A stretch of DNA of 64,000 nt from Burkholderiales bacterium Ga0077544 (GTDB lineage Bacteria; Pseudomonadota; Gammaproteobacteria; Burkholderiales; Burkholderiaceae_D). Position 1 is the first letter of the stretch. Each line of letters begins with the position of its first letter. The notes beneath the pieces were generated by a model that saw only the letters and a program-made list of their open reading frames with translations, was not told the origin of the DNA and ran no database searches. Below are positions 17,718 through 30,155 of this stretch, in pieces. The stretch is taken from assembly GCA_001464355.1 (NCBI GenBank), contig LNEU01000018.1, positions 62,001 to 126,000 of the forward strand, read 5' to 3'. A program made the position numbers and the translations under genes.

Positions 17718-20162
17718 ATGATGAAACATGACTTCTCCCATTGCGCTGGCGCGTCTCAAGCCGGTTTTTCAGTTAAACCTATCGTAGTTGCGATGCATGC
17801 GATGTTCGCTGGCGCAATGATCCTGAGTGTATTGCCTATATCGGCCGTGGCTGCGGAGCAGAGGTCAGCAGCCACGGCCACCGCACATACATTCAATATT
17901 CCGGCAGGATCTTTGAGTAGCGCGATTGCACGCTTTGTTGCTGAATCCGGAACCTATGTTTCTGCCAATGGCGCGCTGACCGATGGTAAAAATAGTCAGG
18001 GCGTGCAGGGGAATTTGTCGGCACCAGATGCGCTCGGCCGTTTGCTGGCAGGCACTGGCCTGGAAGCCGTGGTGCAAGCGAATGGAAGTTATGTACTGCG
18101 TCTTGCCCCCATCGTCGCTTCGACCTTGCCGACGGTAACTGTTACCAGTGCAGCAAGCTCGTCCGGTGACTTGCCCAAAGCTTTTGCGGGTGGACAAGTA
18201 GCGAAAGCCAGTCGCATGGGTGTGCTTGGCAATGTAGATATATTTGAAGCGCCATTCAGTACCCAAAGCTTTACCGAAGAATTTGTGCAAGACCAGCAGT
18301 CACGGCGTGTCGCCGATATTATTTCTGTTGACCCTTCAGTGCGCAGCGCGATGGCGGAATACGGCGATAGTGAAACCTACATCATTCGTGGCTTTCCGCT
18401 ATTTGTGAATCAGGTCGGCGTAAATGGTTTGTACGGGATGACGGAAGGGCGCCGCATTACACCAGAGTTTTACGAACGGGTTGATGTGCTCAAGGGACCT
18501 GCTTCCATGCTCAACGGCATTACCCCCTTTGGTGTTGTCGGCGGCAATATTAATCTGACCAGCAAAAGAGCAGGTGATGAACCGCTGACGCGTGTAACAG
18601 GCAGTTATATTTCAGACAGTCAATTCGGCGCGCATCTGGATCTGGCGCGTCGCTTTGGTGAGGATAAGGAATGGGGTGTACGTCTGAATGTCCTCAGGCG
18701 CGATGGCGACACACCGATAGAGCGGCAGGACGACCATATGAAAAACGGTGCATTAGCCGTGGATTACCGTGGTGACAAACTGAAAGCCAGTCTGGATGTC
18801 GCCCAGCAGGAGCGTCTGACCAACGGTTATTCGGCCAATATCACCTATAACCCGGGTTTTGCTCTCCCGAAGCCGCTGAATAACGAGAAAAACTTTGTCA
18901 ACGATTGGGAATATATAAAGACCAACGCGAAATACTGGATGGCGAAAACCGAGTATGAATTTGATCCGGCACTCACGGCGTACGCCAATTACGGCAATTC
19001 GGAAGGCGATGAAGAGTACTTTTATGCAGGCACACAAGGCCGTCGTTTTATAAATAGCGCAGGCGATTTCACTGCGCGCGTAGGTGGATTCAGGGGGTCG
19101 TATGAAGTCGAAACCTACGAGATAGGCCTGCGTGGCCGGATGATGCTTGGTAATATTTCCAATAGCTATGCGGTTAATTACAGCGACTTCGACCGCAAAT
19201 CATATGGCGCAACCGTTCATACAACAGCGCAATACACAGGCAACGTCTACACCACACCGAACCTGCCTAGACCGACAGTAAATTATGGTGTCATTCCACA
19301 AAATGGCGATTTGCAATTAAGCAGCGTGGGCTTGGTAAACACATTCGGCTTTGTCGACGACAAGGTGTTACTCACTCTTGGTGCTCGTCATCAAAATCTT
19401 TATAGCGGTATTTTTACCGCCGGCACAAAAACAAATGCTTATGACGAAAGCAAAGTGACACCTGCCGCTGCTTTATTGGTCAAACTAGGCAACTACTCTG
19501 TCTACACCAACTACAGCGAGGGCCTGGCGCAGGGCGCGACTGCACCTGGAGGCACCAACAATGCAGGCACCTTGTTACCACCGTCGGTTACCAAACAATA
19601 TGAAGGTGGGGTCAAATACAACGCCGGCACATTTGGCGCTACTGCAGCCGTGTTCCAAATTTCACAACCCAGCACGTTCACCAATGCAGCGAATTTCTTC
19701 GTAGCAGATGGCGAACAGCGCAACCGAGGACTGGAACTGGCCACGTTTGGAGAGCCATTGCGAGGCCTGCGCCTTTTAGGCGGCATCACCTTGATTGATG
19801 CCAAACAAACTAAAACACGCAATGGTATTAATGACGGCAAGGATGCAATCGGCGTACCGAAAATGAACATCGTCTTGAATGGTGAGTACGACCTTCTCGG
19901 AATTCCCGGCTTGACGCTCACAGGTCGGATCAACTCGTTTAGCAGTGCACAAGCAGATGTGGACAATACCCAAAGTATTCCCGGCTGGACCACGCTGGAT
20001 GCCGGTGCGCGCTATGCGATGCATGTTTCCGGCAAGGCCGTCACGCTACGCTTCAATCTGATTAACGTGGCTGACAAAAGTTACTGGAATTCGGTCTCGC
20101 GCAGCTTTATCACGATGGGCGCGCCACGTACTGCTTTGCTGTCAGCCACTATAGATTTTTAA
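17718..20162 (+). CDS. TonB-dependent siderophore receptor with N-terminal signalling domain
   Basis: An 814-residue outer-membrane receptor. A long signal peptide ends near residue 46; a secretin/TonB short N-terminal (STN) domain follows at about 55-130 (FNIPAGSLSSAIARF). The plug domain includes TYIIRGFPL and GVVGGNINL, and a 22-strand-type barrel ends in a terminal phenylalanine (ATIDF). The STN domain marks it as a transducer that signals through the FecR-type protein. The 120-base gap after fecR may hold the sigma-dependent promoter. The ligand is unknown; the layout resembles FpvA/FhuE/FecA-type receptors. Confidence 0.93.
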   Translation: MMKHDFSHCAGASQAGFSVKPIVVAMHAMFAGAMILSVLPISAVAAEQRSAATATAHTFNIPAGSLSSAIARFVAESGTYVSANGALTDGKNSQGVQGNLSAPDALGRLLAGTGLEAVVQANGSYVLRLAPIVASTLPTVTVTSAASSSGDLPKAFAGGQVAKASRMGVLGNVDIFEAPFSTQSFTEEFVQDQQSRRVADIISVDPSVRSAMAEYGDSETYIIRGFPLFVNQVGVNGLYGMTEGRRITPEFYERVDVLKGPASMLNGITPFGVVGGNINLTSKRAGDEPLTRVTGSYISDSQFGAHLDLARRFGEDKEWGVRLNVLRRDGDTPIERQDDHMKNGALAVDYRGDKLKASLDVAQQERLTNGYSANITYNPGFALPKPLNNEKNFVNDWEYIKTNAKYWMAKTEYEFDPALTAYANYGNSEGDEEYFYAGTQGRRFINSAGDFTARVGGFRGSYEVETYEIGLRGRMMLGNISNSYAVNYSDFDRKSYGATVHTTAQYTGNVYTTPNLPRPTVNYGVIPQNGDLQLSSVGLVNTFGFVDDKVLLTLGARHQNLYSGIFTAGTKTNAYDESKVTPAAALLVKLGNYSVYTNYSEGLAQGATAPGGTNNAGTLLPPSVTKQYEGGVKYNAGTFGATAAVFQISQPSTFTNAANFFVADGEQRNRGLELATFGEPLRGLRLLGGITLIDAKQTKTRNGINDGKDAIGVPKMNIVLNGEYDLLGIPGLTLTGRINSFSSAQADVDNTQSIPGWTTLDAGARYAMHVSGKAVTLRFNLINVADKSYWNSVSRSFITMGAPRTALLSATIDF

Positions 20163-20347: not shown

Positions 20348-21265
20348 TTAAGCCGAATGCTCACTGCCGAATTCAGCTTTGGCAAAGAGCTCCGCAGTCC
20401 ATTCAGCAAAGGCGCGCACCTTTGCCGACAGATGCCGGTTAGGCGGATACAACATCCATACAGGAACCACCTCGGACATGTAGCCGTCCAGTACCGGCAC
20501 TAACTGACCCGATGCGGTGTATTCATTGGCGATAAAAGCCGGTAGTTGTATCAGGCCTATGCCGGAGCATGCGGCGACAGCGCATATATCGAAATCGTTG
20601 ATGGCGACGCGCGGCCGGCCCTGTATCGGTGTCTGGGTCTGACCCTGTTCATAAATAAACGGATAGATCTTGCCGGTTTTGGATGAGAAAAAACTGACGA
20701 CCTGATGGCGTTCCAGTTCTTCCAGATTCTTAGGCGCGCCATGTTTGGCCAGATAGGAGGGCGCAGCATACGTGACCATGCGGAAGTCGCCCAGGCGTCT
20801 GGCCACCAGCGATTCGTCATTGATATCGCCGCCGCGAATCACGCAATCGATACCTTCATGCACCAGATCGACAGGCCTGTCGGAACAACCCATTTCGAGA
20901 TCTATTTCAGGATAGCGATTGAAGAAGTCAGCCAGTGCCGGTGCAATGATGCGGCGTCCGACCGCGCCTGGAACGTCGACGCGCAACCGGCCTTTGGGCG
21001 ACATCGCGGCATGACTGACCGCTGCTTCGGTTTCCTCCAGTTCGCTTAATAAACGTATCGCGCGTTCGTAATAACCCGCGCCTTCCGGCGTCACGCTTAC
21101 GTGACGGGTGGTGCGATTCAATAATTTGACGCGCAAGCGTTTTTCCAATGCGATCACTTGCGCCGATACGGTGGCTTTTGGCAGATTCAATGAGACCGCA
21201 GCTTTGGTAAAGCTCGTCAGTTCAACCACGCGTGTGAATGCCAGCATTGTGTCAAAGCGATCCAT
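20348..21265 (-). CDS. LysR family transcriptional regulator
   Basis: A 305-residue LysR regulator. The winged helix at about residues 1-65 includes FTRVVELTSFTKAAVSLNLPKATVSAQV, and the effector domain follows. It is transcribed away from the glutathione transferase gene, with about 150 bases between the starts, so the transferase is the likely target. Family members of this subgroup (DNA part ending LLNRTTRHVSVT) often control oxidoreductase or detoxification genes. The effector is unknown. Confidence 0.92.
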   Translation of the reverse strand: MDRFDTMLAFTRVVELTSFTKAAVSLNLPKATVSAQVIALEKRLRVKLLNRTTRHVSVTPEGAGYYERAIRLLSELEETEAAVSHAAMSPKGRLRVDVPGAVGRRIIAPALADFFNRYPEIDLEMGCSDRPVDLVHEGIDCVIRGGDINDESLVARRLGDFRMVTYAAPSYLAKHGAPKNLEELERHQVVSFFSSKTGKIYPFIYEQGQTQTPIQGRPRVAINDFDICAVAACSGIGLIQLPAFIANEYTASGQLVPVLDGYMSEVVPVWMLYPPNRHLSAKVRAFAEWTAELFAKAEFGSEHSA

Positions 21266-21414
21266 CCCGTCATCCCGATATCGATTAAAGTTGTTGTGAT
21301 TCTAGTGTATTTGCACGGGCTGCTCGCTGAAAACCAGACAAGCGTTATGCTGCAGCAGGACACTATTGCATGTTTATATCAAGTGCAATCTCATTTCATC
21401 GAACAGGAAATCGC

Positions 21415-22050
21415 ATGATTACTCTCTATACGTGGACCACACCGAACGGGCGCAAGCCGGCCATCATGCTGGAAGAACTGGGTGTGCCTTATCAGATAAG
21501 CACGGTCGATATCGGCAAGGATGAACAGTTCGCGCCATCTTTTTTGGCGGTTTCGCCGAATAATAAAATTCCTGCGATTGTGGATGAAGACGCAGAAGGC
21601 GGACCACTGGCGATTTTTGAGAGCGGTGCGATCCTGACTTATCTGGCGGAAAAACACGGTCGCTTTCTGCATGCATCCGGCCCCACGCGTTATAAAACTT
21701 TGGAATGGTTGCATTGGCAGATTGCCGGGCTGGGACCTATGCTGGGGCAGCTCGGATTCTTCGGTGTGCGCTCCAAGGACAAGTCGCCATTGGCAATCGA
21801 TCGTTTTGTCGAAGAGTCTGATCGCTTGCTGTCAGTAATGGATAAGCAACTTGCCGGTAACACTTATCTGGCGGGCGATGAATATACGATTGCAGATATT
21901 GCGTGCTACCCATGGACGATTGCGGCGACGATTACTTTGAAAGACGTGCTGGCAGAAAGTCTGGCGACGAAGCCGGCCGTGCATCGGTGGTTAAAAACAG
22001 TAGGTGAACGGCCTGCGGTGCAAAGAGGTATGGCAGTCCCCAAGGTTTGA
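21415..22050 (+). CDS. Glutathione S-transferase family protein
   Basis: A 211-residue protein with an N-terminal thioredoxin-like domain (about residues 1-83; LYTWTTPNGRKPAIMLEELG, NNKIPAIVD, IFESGAILTYLAE) and a helical C-terminal domain (YTIADIACYPW). The TPNG motif and the PAI/ESGAIL glutathione site are typical of the YfcG/Nu-class group, which has thiol-disulfide reductase activity. The ATG at 21415 follows AGGAAA; an upstream ATG would add 15 residues. It is divergent from the LysR gene and ends in a strong terminator. Confidence 0.93.
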   Translation: MITLYTWTTPNGRKPAIMLEELGVPYQISTVDIGKDEQFAPSFLAVSPNNKIPAIVDEDAEGGPLAIFESGAILTYLAEKHGRFLHASGPTRYKTLEWLHWQIAGLGPMLGQLGFFGVRSKDKSPLAIDRFVEESDRLLSVMDKQLAGNTYLAGDEYTIADIACYPWTIAATITLKDVLAESLATKPAVHRWLKTVGERPAVQRGMAVPKV

Positions 22051-22151: not shown

Positions 22152-22793
22152 TTAGTCGGCTTGCTTGTAAATGGGCCACGCACGCATCGCAGTTGCAGCA
22201 ATGGCCAGCAACTTGTCCCGATTGCCACCACTATCTCTGGCTTGTGTTGACATGCCTTGAATCACGGTCATGTAGAAACTGGCAAGCTCTCCTGCGTCTG
22301 TATCAGGATGCAACTCACCGTTGGCAATTCCTTTTTCGATTCGTGTAGTGATCAGTGTTTCGACGTTGTCACGTCGTTCTGTCATTGCGCTCTGCACATG
22401 CTCAGCCGATGCTGAACAGTTGGTGGCTGCGGTCACAACCAGACAACCGGGTGGGTGGCTCGGGCAAGTGTTATCGACTGCGCTGCTTTGCAATAGGCGT
22501 TCAATTGCATCCCGGGCAGTGGGAGCCTGATTAAACAGGCACTGCAAAGCGTCACAACTCTTGGTCGAATAGCGTTCCACTGCTTCCAGAAACAGCTTTT
22601 CCTTGTCGCCAAATGCGGCATACAGACTAGGCGGAGTAATGCCCATCGCCGAAGTCAATTCACTCAAGGAAGCGGCTTCATAGCCGTAACGCCAAAAAAC
22701 CAGCATTGCACGTTCGAGCGCAACCTCGCGATCGAATGACAGCGGCCGGCCGGTCTTTTTACGCGGCTTTTCGGATTTATTTTCTATTTCCAT
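22152..22793 (-). CDS. TetR family repressor (likely controls the divergent efflux operon)
   Basis: A 213-residue TetR regulator. The helix-turn-helix lies at about residues 18-60 (FDREVALERAMLVFWRYGYEAASL, MGITPPSLYAAFGDKEKLF), and a ligand-binding C-terminal domain follows. The start is set at the ATG at 22793; a GTG 27 bases upstream is also in frame. An operator-like sequence overlaps the start, and two more lie toward the divergent efflux operon, which suggests autoregulation and control of the pump. Confidence 0.92.
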   Translation of the reverse strand: MEIENKSEKPRKKTGRPLSFDREVALERAMLVFWRYGYEAASLSELTSAMGITPPSLYAAFGDKEKLFLEAVERYSTKSCDALQCLFNQAPTARDAIERLLQSSAVDNTCPSHPPGCLVVTAATNCSASAEHVQSAMTERRDNVETLITTRIEKGIANGELHPDTDAGELASFYMTVIQGMSTQARDSGGNRDKLLAIAATAMRAWPIYKQAD

Positions 22794-22808
22794 AGTGATC
22801 GATAGTAA
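22793..22808. promoter_or_regulatory. Operator-like repeat 1 of the tetR/efflux region
   Basis: TAGTGATCGATAGTAA overlaps the tetR start codon. It matches repeat 2 at 13 of 16 positions. On the minus strand TTGTTT and TACTAT stand 17 bases apart just upstream and could be the tetR promoter, with the operator on its -10 region. Confidence 0.5.
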
Positions 22809-22857
22809 ACCTCTTGACACGCGAAAACAAGCGCTATAAAGTCACAAACTTAATTCG

Positions 22858-22873
22858 TAGTGATCGCTATTAA
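22858..22873. promoter_or_regulatory. Operator-like repeat 2 of the tetR/efflux region
   Basis: TAGTGATCGCTATTAA lies midway in the 277-base divergent region. Its partial dyad, TAGTGATCG with CGCTATTA, is shared with repeat 1 and, in the right half, with the palindrome at 22993-23010. Confidence 0.5.
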
Positions 22874-23070: not shown

Positions 23071-23265
23071 ATGAAAAATCAAATTTCGCGTCGTTTATAC
23101 CAAGCCACTGCCGTCGCCGCAAGCACATTAGTGATCTCTGCTGCGATGCACAATGGCACTTTCCAGGACGCAATTTATGACGGCGCTTTAACTGGCGGCG
23201 CGATGTGGGCTAGCGCCACTTCCGTCAACGCTTTTGCGCAATCGACACCGGTGGAGCAGCACTGA
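23071..23265 (+). CDS. Small exported peptide of unknown function, first gene of the efflux operon
   Basis: A 64-residue protein with a signal-peptide-like N-terminus (MKNQISRRLYQATAVAASTL) and a small, neutral remainder. The ATG at 23071 follows GGGAGC at a good distance; an earlier in-frame ATG at 23020 is less likely. Its stop is separated by one base from the next start, so it belongs to the operon. An ANAFAQ-type site near residues 53-58 could be a second processing point, since the hydrophobic stretch is long. I do not recognise a family. Confidence 0.6.
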   Translation: MKNQISRRLYQATAVAASTLVISAAMHNGTFQDAIYDGALTGGAMWASATSVNAFAQSTPVEQH

Positions 23266-23266
23266 G

Positions 23267-24106
23267 ATGATTTTGACCGGCACAGTTCAGCGCAGTTCAT
23301 CTTTTGGTCCTTGGACCACGTCGTTTAAAACGTCGACACAGTCGCGCGAAATCGGTTTGCGCGTGTTTGGCAAAAACGGCAGTAAAGACAGCGCGAAAAG
23401 TGGGCCGGCAGAATTATTGCCATTAGTAGTTTATTTCCACGGTGGCTTCTTCACTTGTGGTGCCGTGGAAGATGCCGATGGCATCGCCCACGCATTGTCG
23501 GAAAAAGCAGTCGTCGTCGCAGTGGACTATCCGCTGGCTGGCACCGATTCTTTTCTCGATATCACCGAAGTGGCATTCGAAGCCTTGCAATGGGCGTATG
23601 ACCACGCCGCAGGCTTGGGTGCAGATGGCATGCGCGTGATGGTGGCCGGTGATCAGGCTGGCGGCAATTTAGCCGCTGCGGTCGCGATGATCGCACGCGA
23701 TAGATTGACGCCAACCACACGTGGCATCTGCCTTAAAGGCCAGATCCTGATCACGCCGATGCTGGATCCTACTCAATCATCCAAGTCCATGAAGGCACTC
23801 GGCAAATGCGTTTGCCAGGAAGGTTGGGCGGCTTATCTGCCATCGACCAGCGACGCTTTACATCCGTATGCCGCTCCAGCGCAATCGCGCCGTCTTGGCG
23901 GTTTGGTGCCGGCATTAGTCATCACTGCGCAAAACGATGCATTGCGCGATGAAGCTGAACAGTACGCATCGAGTTTGATCGCTGCCGGTGTGCCGGTGCA
24001 AGTACGCCGCTTTGCTGCTGAAAGCGGGCAACTGGTCAATCCGACTCACGCAAGTTTTTCATCTGTCATTTCAACGATTAAGCAATTTATTCAGGATCCA
24101 GCCTGA
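23267..24106 (+). CDS. Alpha/beta hydrolase-fold protein (HSL-like) lacking the catalytic serine
   Basis: A 279-residue protein of the hormone-sensitive-lipase/esterase type. The oxyanion motif YFHGGFFTCG is at residues 57-65, the nucleophile elbow is AGDQAGGNLAAA, and VITAQNDALRDEAEQYA carries the acid residue. In esterases of this family the elbow is GDSAGG; here Gln130 replaces Ser, and the histidine expected near residue 255 is also absent (SGQLVN). It is therefore probably not a hydrolase by the classical mechanism. The ATG at 23267 lies one base after the upstream stop. It stands directly before the RND pump genes and presumably supports or senses the pump substrate. Confidence 0.8.
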   Translation: MILTGTVQRSSSFGPWTTSFKTSTQSREIGLRVFGKNGSKDSAKSGPAELLPLVVYFHGGFFTCGAVEDADGIAHALSEKAVVVAVDYPLAGTDSFLDITEVAFEALQWAYDHAAGLGADGMRVMVAGDQAGGNLAAAVAMIARDRLTPTTRGICLKGQILITPMLDPTQSSKSMKALGKCVCQEGWAAYLPSTSDALHPYAAPAQSRRLGGLVPALVITAQNDALRDEAEQYASSLIAAGVPVQVRRFAAESGQLVNPTHASFSSVISTIKQFIQDPA

Positions 24107-24204: not shown

Positions 24205-25437
24205 ATGCAAAACTCCATCACATCACGTTTCTCATCACGTTTCTCACGCAGCACGATCGCGATTGCAATCGGTGTTCTTTTCGTCATTGGCGTTGCCACC
24301 GTATCGTTGACCGGCCATGCCGAAAAATCTGCGCCGACTGCGCCACCTGCAACACCAGTCACCGTTGCCAATGTGCTTGAGCGTTCGGTCACCGAGTGGG
24401 ACGATTTTTCCGGCAGGGTTGAAGCAGTAGAGCGTGTTGAAATTCGTCCGCGTATATCCGGCACCATCGACGCCGTGCATTTTCAAGATGGTCAGTTAGT
24501 GAAAAAAGGCGCATTGCTGTTCACGATTGATCCACGTCCTTACAAAGCTGAACTGGCGCGCGCCGATGCCGCACGTGCCGGCGCATCAGCCCGCTTGTCC
24601 TTGGCGAAAACAGAATTGGAACGCACCAAACGTTTGCTGGAAGATCGTGCAGTCGCACAACGTGAACTTGATCAACGTGAAAACGCATTACAAGAAGCCG
24701 ACGCGAATCTGAAATCTGCCGATGCTGCAGTACTGACGGCACGTTTGAATCTGCAATATACGGAGATCACCGCACCAGTCGCTGGTCGCGTCTCGCGCGC
24801 CGAAATCACAGTCGGTAATCTGGTCGCAACCGGTCCGACCGCACCGACACTGACGACACTGGTTTCTGTCTCGCCGGTCTATGTCAATTTTGAAATCGAC
24901 GAACCAACTTACATCCGTTACTCAAGCGCTGGAGCAGTTGGTAACACCGGCGTGAATCGCGTGCCGGTTGCGATGGGTCTGACCAGCGAAGACGGTTATC
25001 CACGTCAAGGCCATGTCAAATCTTTCGACAACCGCGTTGACACTGGCTCCGGCACGATTCGCGTACGCGCTGTATTCGATAACGAAAACGGCAGCTTGAC
25101 GCCAGGCATGTACGCACGCGTACGCACCGGTGATTCCAACGCCAAGAATGCCTTGTTGATTGATGACAAGGCAGTCGGTACCGATCAAGACAAAAAATAT
25201 GTAATGGTCGTTGGTGCCGATAACAAGGTCGTATATCGCCAAATCACATTGGGACCGATCGTAGAAGGCTTGCGTGTAGTACGTAGCGGCTTGAAAAAAG
25301 ATGAACGCATCGTCGTGAACGGTTTGCAACGCATCCGTCCGAATGACACCGTCACACCAGAAGTGGTTGCAATGGACGCCAAAGTTGCGAGCGCGAACAA
25401 GGCTGCAGGGAAGGGCACTGCGACAGCAGTGAACTAA
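24205..25437 (+). CDS. RND efflux periplasmic adaptor (MexE-like membrane fusion protein)
   Basis: A 410-residue adaptor linking the inner-membrane pump to the outer-membrane channel. After an N-terminal membrane anchor come the lipoyl halves (VEIRPRISGTIDAVHFQDGQ and LQYTEITAPVAGRVSRAEI), the alpha-hairpin between them (about residues 110-180), and the beta-barrel with RVRAVFDNENGSLTPGMYARV. No lipobox is present, so it is anchored by the helix. The start ATG follows GGGG. It shares the operon with the pump and channel genes. Confidence 0.94.
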   Translation: MQNSITSRFSSRFSRSTIAIAIGVLFVIGVATVSLTGHAEKSAPTAPPATPVTVANVLERSVTEWDDFSGRVEAVERVEIRPRISGTIDAVHFQDGQLVKKGALLFTIDPRPYKAELARADAARAGASARLSLAKTELERTKRLLEDRAVAQRELDQRENALQEADANLKSADAAVLTARLNLQYTEITAPVAGRVSRAEITVGNLVATGPTAPTLTTLVSVSPVYVNFEIDEPTYIRYSSAGAVGNTGVNRVPVAMGLTSEDGYPRQGHVKSFDNRVDTGSGTIRVRAVFDNENGSLTPGMYARVRTGDSNAKNALLIDDKAVGTDQDKKYVMVVGADNKVVYRQITLGPIVEGLRVVRSGLKKDERIVVNGLQRIRPNDTVTPEVVAMDAKVASANKAAGKGTATAVN

Positions 25438-25476: not shown

Positions 25477-28692
<3,216 letters not shown>

Positions 28693-28694
28693 TC

Positions 28695-30155
28695 ATGAAA
28701 AAATTTAATTTAACTCTGACAGCTCTAGTCGCAGCATTAGTACTCGCGGGTTGCTCTACAGCGAAACCGCCAGATCAGGTCAAACTCGATTTGCCTACGC
28801 AATATCGTGAAAAATCTGATCAGCTGGATGGCGCATGGAAAGTCGCAGCACCAGCCGACAACAAGGATCGTGGCGCATGGTGGACTGTGTATGGCGATAA
28901 CGATCTGGGCAACTTGATCGTCGAAGCGACGAACTCAAATCCTAATCTGGCCATGGCGCTGTCTCGGGTAAAAGATGCACGCGCTACTGCCGGTGTAGTG
29001 GATGCGGATCGAGGCGTGCAAGTTGATGTCGGGGTAGGTCCAACTCGCGTTGGCAATGCACAGACAACATCGACCACTTATCGTGCGCCTTTGTCGTTCT
29101 CGTACGAAGTCGATTTGTTCGGTCGCTTGTCTGATTCCAGCCGCGCTGCACGACTGGATGCAGAAGGGCAGGAAGCCGCTTATCGTTCCGTCTTGCTGGC
29201 ATTGCAGTCCGATGTCGCGCAACTGTATTTCACGATACGCTCGCTCGATTCGGAAATCGAAGTCCTGCAAAAAACCATCGCCTTGCGTCAGGAAGGACTG
29301 GGTCTGGCACAACATCGTTTTGATGCAGGTGACACTAGCGAACTCGATGTTGCTCAGGCAAAAACCGAATGGGCCACCACCAGTGCCGAGCTGGAAGGCG
29401 TCAATCGTGAACGTGCACGCAGCGATCACGCACTGGCAATTTTGCTAGGTAAAGCACCGGCCGAATTTACCCTGGTCGTCGCACCGTTCAATGCGCCTAT
29501 CGTTACAGTGCCAGCTGGTTTGCCATCCGATTTGCTGGAACGTCGCCCCGATATCGCACAGGCGCAGCGTCAACTTGCTGCATCCAGTGCGCGTATCGGT
29601 GCGGCCAAGGCAGCCTTCTTTCCAAAGTTGCTGTTGACGGGTTCCGCTGGTTACGAGTCTAACGAATTGCGTGACCTGTTTAAATGGTCTAGCCGTAGCT
29701 GGATGCTGGGACCAGTGGTTGGGACCATGTTGTCTATGCCCTTGTTTGACGGCGGACGCAATAGATCGAATCTCGCGCGTGCCGATGCAAATTACGAAGG
29801 CATGGTTGCCAACTATAGACAGCAAGTGCTGGTTGGTTTCCGCGACGTCGAAGATAATCTGAGTGCCTTGCGCACGCTGGACAGACAGATGGTGTTTGAA
29901 GAACAGGCGATCAAATCAGCGCAACTCGCCGCCCGCTTGGCAGACTCACGCTATCGCAATGGTTCAGCAAGTTACTTTGAAGTGATCGATGCTCAACGAT
30001 CGAGTTTGTCGTCGCAACGTTCGCGCGTGCGAAGTGCAGGGCAGCGTGCAGTGGCATCCGTAGGTTTGATCCGTGCATTGGGCGGTGGCTGGGAATCGCC
30101 CGTGGAGTCAGCGCAGAGCGATGTTCCGCCTTTGGCGCAACAGCAGCAAAAATAA
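28695..30155 (+). CDS. RND outer-membrane efflux lipoprotein (OprN/NodT type)
   Basis: A 486-residue TolC-like channel. The signal peptide ends in the lipobox LAGC, followed by two outer-membrane efflux repeats (SYEVDLFGRLSDSSRAARL and PLFDGGRNRSNLARADANYE). The ATG at 28695, just after the pump stop codon, is chosen over a TTG six bases upstream; GAAGG stands in front. It completes the tripartite pump and ends with a terminator. Length is normal for the family. Confidence 0.94.
   Translation: MKKFNLTLTALVAALVLAGCSTAKPPDQVKLDLPTQYREKSDQLDGAWKVAAPADNKDRGAWWTVYGDNDLGNLIVEATNSNPNLAMALSRVKDARATAGVVDADRGVQVDVGVGPTRVGNAQTTSTTYRAPLSFSYEVDLFGRLSDSSRAARLDAEGQEAAYRSVLLALQSDVAQLYFTIRSLDSEIEVLQKTIALRQEGLGLAQHRFDAGDTSELDVAQAKTEWATTSAELEGVNRERARSDHALAILLGKAPAEFTLVVAPFNAPIVTVPAGLPSDLLERRPDIAQAQRQLAASSARIGAAKAAFFPKLLLTGSAGYESNELRDLFKWSSRSWMLGPVVGTMLSMPLFDGGRNRSNLARADANYEGMVANYRQQVLVGFRDVEDNLSALRTLDRQMVFEEQAIKSAQLAARLADSRYRNGSASYFEVIDAQRSSLSSQRSRVRSAGQRAVASVGLIRALGGGWESPVESAQSDVPPLAQQQQK

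Follow-up and report, generated by a model that had tools for sequence, protein, structure and literature searches.

The locus analysed here raises the question of what an alpha/beta hydrolase that lacks its nucleophile does at the head of an RND efflux operon, and which of the neighbouring genes is its functional partner. The window, a stretch of 64,000 nucleotides, belongs to a genome near Herminiimonas fonticola (the hydrolases are 91% identical). On the plus strand, a gene for a putatively exported peptide of Herminiimonas type (23071..23265; 64 amino acids, ATG at 23071, stop codon at 23263-23265) is followed by the hydrolase gene (23267..24106; 279 amino acids, ATG at 23267, stop codon ending at 24106) and by the genes for a MexE-like periplasmic adaptor (24205..25437), a MexF/OqxB-like permease (25477..28692) and an OprN/NodT-like outer-membrane factor, a lipoprotein (28689..30155). 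The adaptor scored 412.5 bits with the MexE model NF045904, which is under the cut-off of 714, and passed the cut-off of TIGR01730; the permease (ACR_tran; 1464.7 bits with NF000282) and the outer-membrane factor (OEP; 368.6 bits with TIGR01845) were both over the respective cut-offs. A TetR-family regulator gene (22152..22820, minus strand; TetR_N and TetR_C_13 domains) diverges from the peptide gene, and beyond it lie a glutathione S-transferase (GST) gene (21370..22050, plus strand) and a LysR regulator gene (20348..21265, minus strand). The GST gene is a variable element, with no match at two relatives of the locus (L034 and L035). The LysR gene behind TetR had been absent from the initial annotation, yet it turned out to be informative. 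As had been noted, a single base separates the peptide stop from the hydrolase start, and by eye the 64-residue protein looks like one with a signal peptide, having a basic N-terminus and a run of hydrophobic residues.

Two further features were seen in the window. Between 30480 and 33634 four genes stand in a row on the minus strand, encoding a PP2C-like phosphatase, a small kinase-like protein, a small protein and a diguanylate cyclase, which presumably resemble the siaABCD signalling operon. At 17718-20162 a TonB-dependent receptor-like protein is encoded that, by eye, carries at its N-terminus an extension like that of FecA-type signalling receptors.

The elbow of the hydrolase reads G128-D129-Q130-A131-G132-G133, and Gln130 (CAG, 23654..23656, plus strand) is aligned with the nucleophilic Ser of relatives having GDSAGG. 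The HGG oxyanion loop (residues 58-60, 23438..23446, plus strand) and the triad acid Asp224 within NDALRDE (23936..23938, plus strand) are kept; among the 67 Ser-less rows of the alignment described below, HGG is found in 61 and the acid is Asp in 66 and Glu in one. At the place of the catalytic His the alignment has Gly. The replacement of Ser by Gln, the changed His region and the conserved HGG loop and acid, all of which had been proposed from the letters, are thereby confirmed. The protein matches Pfam Abhydrolase_3 with an E value of 4.5e-47, and the fold is predicted with confidence by an AlphaFold model built from 42 sequences (pLDDT 91.2, pTM 0.90). In a Foldseek search the nearest solved structures were esterases of the hormone-sensitive-lipase type, including the chloramphenicol hydrolase EstDL136, with TM values of about 0.7-0.8 at about 30% identity. 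The window protein shares the fold, the HGG loop and the acid with members of this group (bacterial family IV) such as EST2, EstE1, EstDL136 and LipP1, but differs from them by lacking both the nucleophilic Ser in GxSxG and the canonical His; for the latter, the nearby His261 leaves a small doubt. It scored 172.6 bits with the LipP1 model (NF058653), below the cut-off of 350 bits, and lacks the combination of elbow Asp and His that marks Asp-nucleophile hydrolases. No signal peptide was recognised by eye. With Gln130 and without the canonical His, the window protein is probably catalytically dead.

The gene context identifies the hydrolase as an orthologue of Burkholderia LlpE, and we refer to the gene as llpE. 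The published arrangements are ceoR-llpE-ceoAB-opcM and bpeT-llpE-bpeEF-oprC (PMC1557404, PMC5587915). In the window the hydrolase gene likewise lies between a CeoR/BpeT-type LysR gene, whose product is 42-67% identical to the llpE-adjacent LysR proteins of other genera, and mexE-mexF-oprN; the genes for GST, TetR and peptide separate it from the LysR gene. LysR, hydrolase, mexE, mexF and oprN occur together in 19 of 20 longer stretches with homologues from the same family. The same set is present in B. cenocepacia (L107), where the neighbours were predicted as ceoA and ceoB, and in Cupriavidus; in Azospirillum the hydrolase set is located on a plasmid, where LysR is read co-directionally and a match to oprN was not found. 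Window and Burkholderia LlpE are alike in fold, in the place between LysR and adaptor genes and in the type of pump, and B. cenocepacia LlpE also lacks the Ser (GHDAGG). They differ in that Burkholderia has Asp and His where the window has Gln and no canonical His, and in that the window adds the TetR and peptide genes and has its LysR gene beyond the TetR gene. To our knowledge there is no llpE gene in the MexT-MexEF-OprN operon of Pseudomonas. What it shares with the locus is a LysR regulator that neighbours a pump of this type (PMC5587915).

Citations of LlpE as the lipase-like component of an efflux operon with clinical relevance go back to 2004. A review from 2015 regards it as a probable enzyme that warrants further study, and states that LlpE orthologues are present in all annotated bpeEF-oprC-type operons and that deletion of llpE in Burkholderia affected neither function nor specificity of the pump (PMC4396416).

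In order to see how far the loss of Ser extends, homologues were aligned after removal of near-identical copies, which left 92 non-redundant rows; those whose stretch also contains mexE or mexF were regarded as pump-linked. All 63 pump-linked homologues, window included, lack the Ser (Asp 36, Glu 20, Gln 7). Among the 29 others, 25 have the Ser together with a His in the canonical place, three have Glu and stand beside a LysR gene, and one (L039) has Gln; for most of the Ser rows the absence of a link to a pump rests on short flanks. Since the 92 rows came from searches with LlpE proteins, we added a sample drawn from the side of the pump. Of 300 genomes of the order, 53 provided 59 mexE places, which were followed in the upstream direction. 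A hydrolase was present in 22 of these mexE operons, with Asp in 12, Glu in eight, Gln in two and Ser in none. A Ser-bearing homologue in the same operon context was thus sought in both sets and found in neither (0/22 mexE-drawn operons, 0/63 pump-linked homologues). This supports the earlier view that the protein differs from ordinary serine esterases, and it shows that the loss of Ser is conserved (63/63 and 22/22). Conservation of Gln as such, which the initial annotation had expected, was not seen: Gln marks one clade, and the others have Asp or Glu. From these alignments, serine-esterase chemistry has probably been lost across the LlpE clade.

In a quick tree of 81 rows, calculated without the trait columns, 58 Ser-less rows including the window hydrolase fall on one side of a branch with an SH-aLRT value of 98. 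Asp forms one group (100), Gln one group (99) and Glu two; several branches are long, so that single placements are unsure. The tree omitted 11 of the 92 rows, nine known only from short loci and the distant L002 and L036. Residues that distinguish the clade from its Ser relatives are R146, L166, P168, P192, H199, Y201, R209, E231, R248 and F274. Gln recurs in the four other members of the genus that carry the gene (L033-L035, L037), in two other genera (L038 and L102) and in the unlinked L039. Because of this recurrence and of dN/dS values of 0.04-0.20 in all ten pairs of five genus species, Gln130 is not an isolated error. The hydrolase of L039 (L039:7917-8726; GEQAGG) sits on a long branch of the Gln clade and adjoins a gene that looks by eye like a Crp/Fnr-like regulator; neither a pump nor a LysR match was found within its 17.6-kb stretch, and its genome has a mexE match elsewhere.

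A scan of genome contigs with the window protein returned four loci, three of them from close kin. A class-wide search gave matches at E ≤ 1e-35 in 10 of 369 genomes, the genome of the window included; the nine others have the Ser, with no pump match within flanks of about 1.5 kb or less. An apparent fusion of hydrolase and adaptor in one genus (g26; frames of 740-915 residues) was rejected, as the extra part is an upstream stop-to-stop frame and the adaptor a separate downstream gene.

Could LlpE still hydrolyse esters by means of an unusual nucleophile or of a His that has moved elsewhere? His261, seven residues past the canonical His place, is common to six of the seven pump-linked Gln members (L102 is without it), so that a relocated His is possible in the Gln group, and the predicted fold and the acid are intact. 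However, all 67 Ser-less rows have Asp, Glu or Gln at the elbow and never Cys or Thr, and we know of no mechanism in which Gln acts as nucleophile. We regard this explanation as very unlikely.

The elbow residue is coupled to the canonical His, which accompanies Asp in 36 of 36 rows and Glu or Gln in 0 of 31. The combination of elbow Asp and His is thus restricted to LlpE clades other than that of the window. In haloalkane dehalogenases and epoxide hydrolases an elbow Asp serves as nucleophile. Applied to LlpE, this scheme would have the elbow Asp attack an electrophile, with the His activating water and with release of the ester intermediate. Catalysis would then be a property of the Asp clade, to which Burkholderia LlpE belongs, while the Glu and Gln lineages, the window among them, would have lost this activity or never had it. 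The retained HGG loop and acid agree with catalysis in the Asp clade, and the GST, LysR and flavoenzyme neighbours (see below) fit electrophile stress; MexEF-OprN of Pseudomonas has been reported to belong to a response to electrophiles (PMC8287888). Nevertheless, the scheme leaves the window protein itself unexplained, the oxyanion loop is of the esterase type, and the tree does not settle the ancestral elbow residue of the clade. We consider it rather unlikely as an account of LlpE, though for the clades other than that of the window it is the main competing explanation.

The evidence on inheritance separates the accessory genes of the locus from each other. Each of the 12 Herminiimonas operons that encode this pump also has the peptide and TetR genes beside it, whether or not the hydrolase is present. 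The peptide has eleven invariant positions and was found in 9 of 145 family genomes, eight of them Herminiimonas and one (G071) from another genus, with weak partial matches at L149 and L150. The peptide therefore belongs to the TetR-pump block of Herminiimonas, as an accessory separate from LlpE. The sequence TAGTGATCGMTA occurs twice between TetR and peptide (22793-22804 and 22858-22869; span 22793..22869) and is operator-like. A search with up to one mismatch gave three matches, with 0.31 expected and as many in 2 of 100 shuffles, a count that leans upward since the pattern was read off those two copies. AGTGATC-NN-TA is present in 10 of 12 intergenic stretches, window included, and it is plausible that the copies are a TetR operator, for which they are candidates by sequence.

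The pump is present in 12 of 13 genomes of the genus, and in one (G140) mexF is broken: in L127 (7307-10430) it is split into two frames with stop codons, while the TetR, peptide and mexE matches look whole. Only five of the 13 genomes have LlpE, and it is these same five that possess an orthologous LysR (82-100% identity). None of the eight genomes without LlpE has this LysR, the best match there reaching 45%. Seven LlpE-free pumps of the genus keep TetR, peptide, mexE and mexF. Because LysR and llpE flank the TetR-peptide part on opposite sides, one contiguous deletion that spares this part cannot remove both. On a MexEF tree built from 16 loci, one of which (L206) covered just 26% of the columns, the LysR-llpE pair changes its state three times while the pump stays, most simply by three losses. 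The third change is in G028, where the closest LysR of the whole genome is 43% identical, compared with 67% and 60% in the relatives G014 and G406.

These changes of state, together with reports that llpE is frameshifted in one clinical Burkholderia isolate (PMC3352902) and PCR-negative in two sequence types (PMC5461758), could indicate that LlpE is the remnant of a former esterase that is in decay and persists by hitch-hiking with the operon. By these reports llpE is dispensable, at least in those Burkholderia strains. Against a relic speak the dN/dS values of the hydrolase, which are like those of mexE (0.05-0.08 in three comparisons), and the invariance of H199, P200, Y201 and R209 in all 67 Ser-less rows. 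LlpE is maintained by purifying selection, and we disfavour the relic as highly improbable.

The association of hydrolase and LysR was also seen in the sample drawn from mexE. A LysR of at least 40% identity is present in all 22 mexE operons with hydrolase and in 7 of the 37 without (Fisher p 2e-10 over the 59 places, which is not a true probability because the rows are related and the stretches of unequal length). The fetched stretches were longer around many of the hydrolase-bearing operons; within 4 kb of mexE the LysR was found in 21 of 22. LysR does not require the hydrolase, since 7 of the 59 mexE operons have LysR alone. Conversely, LysR and LlpE occur by themselves at L132, L137 and L138, and no mexE match at E ≤ 1e-60 was found in any of these three genomes (one of which, G044, is only 68% complete). 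At L132 (1469-3541) and L137 (4005-5947), from two genera, LysR-LlpE is followed by a gene for an old-yellow-enzyme-type flavoenzyme, which at L132 passes the N-ethylmaleimide reductase cut-off. This arrangement is a pump-free version of the LysR-LlpE module. In Mycetohabitans rhizoxinica (L109, 8011-9892) both LysR and LlpE have annotated genes, but the adaptor is matched over a short piece only, and the permease annotation covers about half the length; LlpE may thus outlast the pump.

These data bear directly on the claim that close gene spacing links the hydrolase to the pump. The claim is not supported, given the seven genus species that keep TetR, peptide and pump without hydrolase, the three genomes with LysR and hydrolase and no mexE match at the above threshold, and the pump function reported as unchanged after deletion in Burkholderia (PMC4396416). 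It is the CeoR/BpeT-type LysR regulator, and not the pump, with which LlpE is co-inherited. The same observations weigh on the idea that LlpE is a pump accessory that binds pump substrates and passes them to the pump or buffers them. The hydrolase adjoins mexE in 22 of 59 mexE operons, the fold neighbour EstDL136 acts on chloramphenicol, a cited inducer of the ceo pump (PMC1557404), and the reported presence of LlpE in all annotated operons of the bpeEF-oprC type would also agree with such a role. Since deletion leaves the pump intact, and since pumps without LlpE and LlpE without a mexE match both exist, we judge it unlikely. The evidence moves the partner of the hydrolase from the pump to the LysR regulator.

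Our preferred reading, to which we assign a probability of about 0.45, is that the hydrolase fold of LlpE has ceased to cleave esters and instead works for the LysR branch, as the binder of a small molecule. The role in sensing or binding is inferred. LlpE would be cytosolic, and its retained pocket, formed by HGG loop, acid and cap, would bind a small organic molecule. Ligand binding might then help to set the level or the presentation of the co-inducer of the LysR regulator, and LlpE would have no part in transport but would tune how the pump and related stress genes are induced. Aromatic inducers are suggested because llpE is among the strongly root-induced genes tabulated in one study (log2FC 15.2, PMC10719396) and because salicylate and chloramphenicol are cited as inducers of the ceo pump (PMC1557404). 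However, the authors of the latter study did not observe induction of ceoB by salicylate in their own hands (PMC1557404).

Several observations count against this reading. Induction of bpeEF-oprC was reported to be near wild-type in the absence of BpeT and BpeS (PMC5587915). The seven mexE operons with LysR alone and the Burkholderia strains that dispense with llpE also weigh against it. LlpE has been called putatively periplasmic (PMC1557404), and if this is right, a direct role together with LysR is weakened. The complete Asp-His-Asp set of the Asp clade hints at catalysis there. Finally, L039 has Gln in a stretch without pump or LysR match.

A precedent for a receptor with this fold exists in plants. 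The gibberellin receptor GID1, which keeps its Ser, acts through DELLA proteins, and the likeness is an analogy only. GID1 is a hormone-sensitive-lipase-like protein serving as a receptor (PMC4622167), and its structure in the PDB was matched by the family profile of the hydrolase. By this analogy, LlpE might be a widespread hydrolase-fold receptor or ligand-handling partner of LysR regulators of the CeoR/BpeT/MexT type, a prokaryotic counterpart of GID1, in which an acidic or amide side chain took the place of the nucleophile so as to hold a small molecule; the Asp clade might then consist of Asp-nucleophile enzymes that have escaped recognition and use up this inducer. We regard this wider proposal as possible but doubtful.

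The family itself was already known. New are the loss of Ser throughout the pump-linked members, the Asp-His coupling and the co-inheritance with LysR, none of which is mentioned in the consulted parts of the llpE literature (PMC1557404, PMC5587915, PMC2891726, PMC4396416, PMC3352902, PMC5461758, PMC12844865 and PMC10719396); the 2004 paper (PMC324543) might hold an earlier remark. Together these three findings turn the open question of LlpE function into specific tests. They offer a reason why the search for effects of LlpE on drug export could fail. They are also a warning that proteins of the LlpE type should not be annotated as lipases or esterases.
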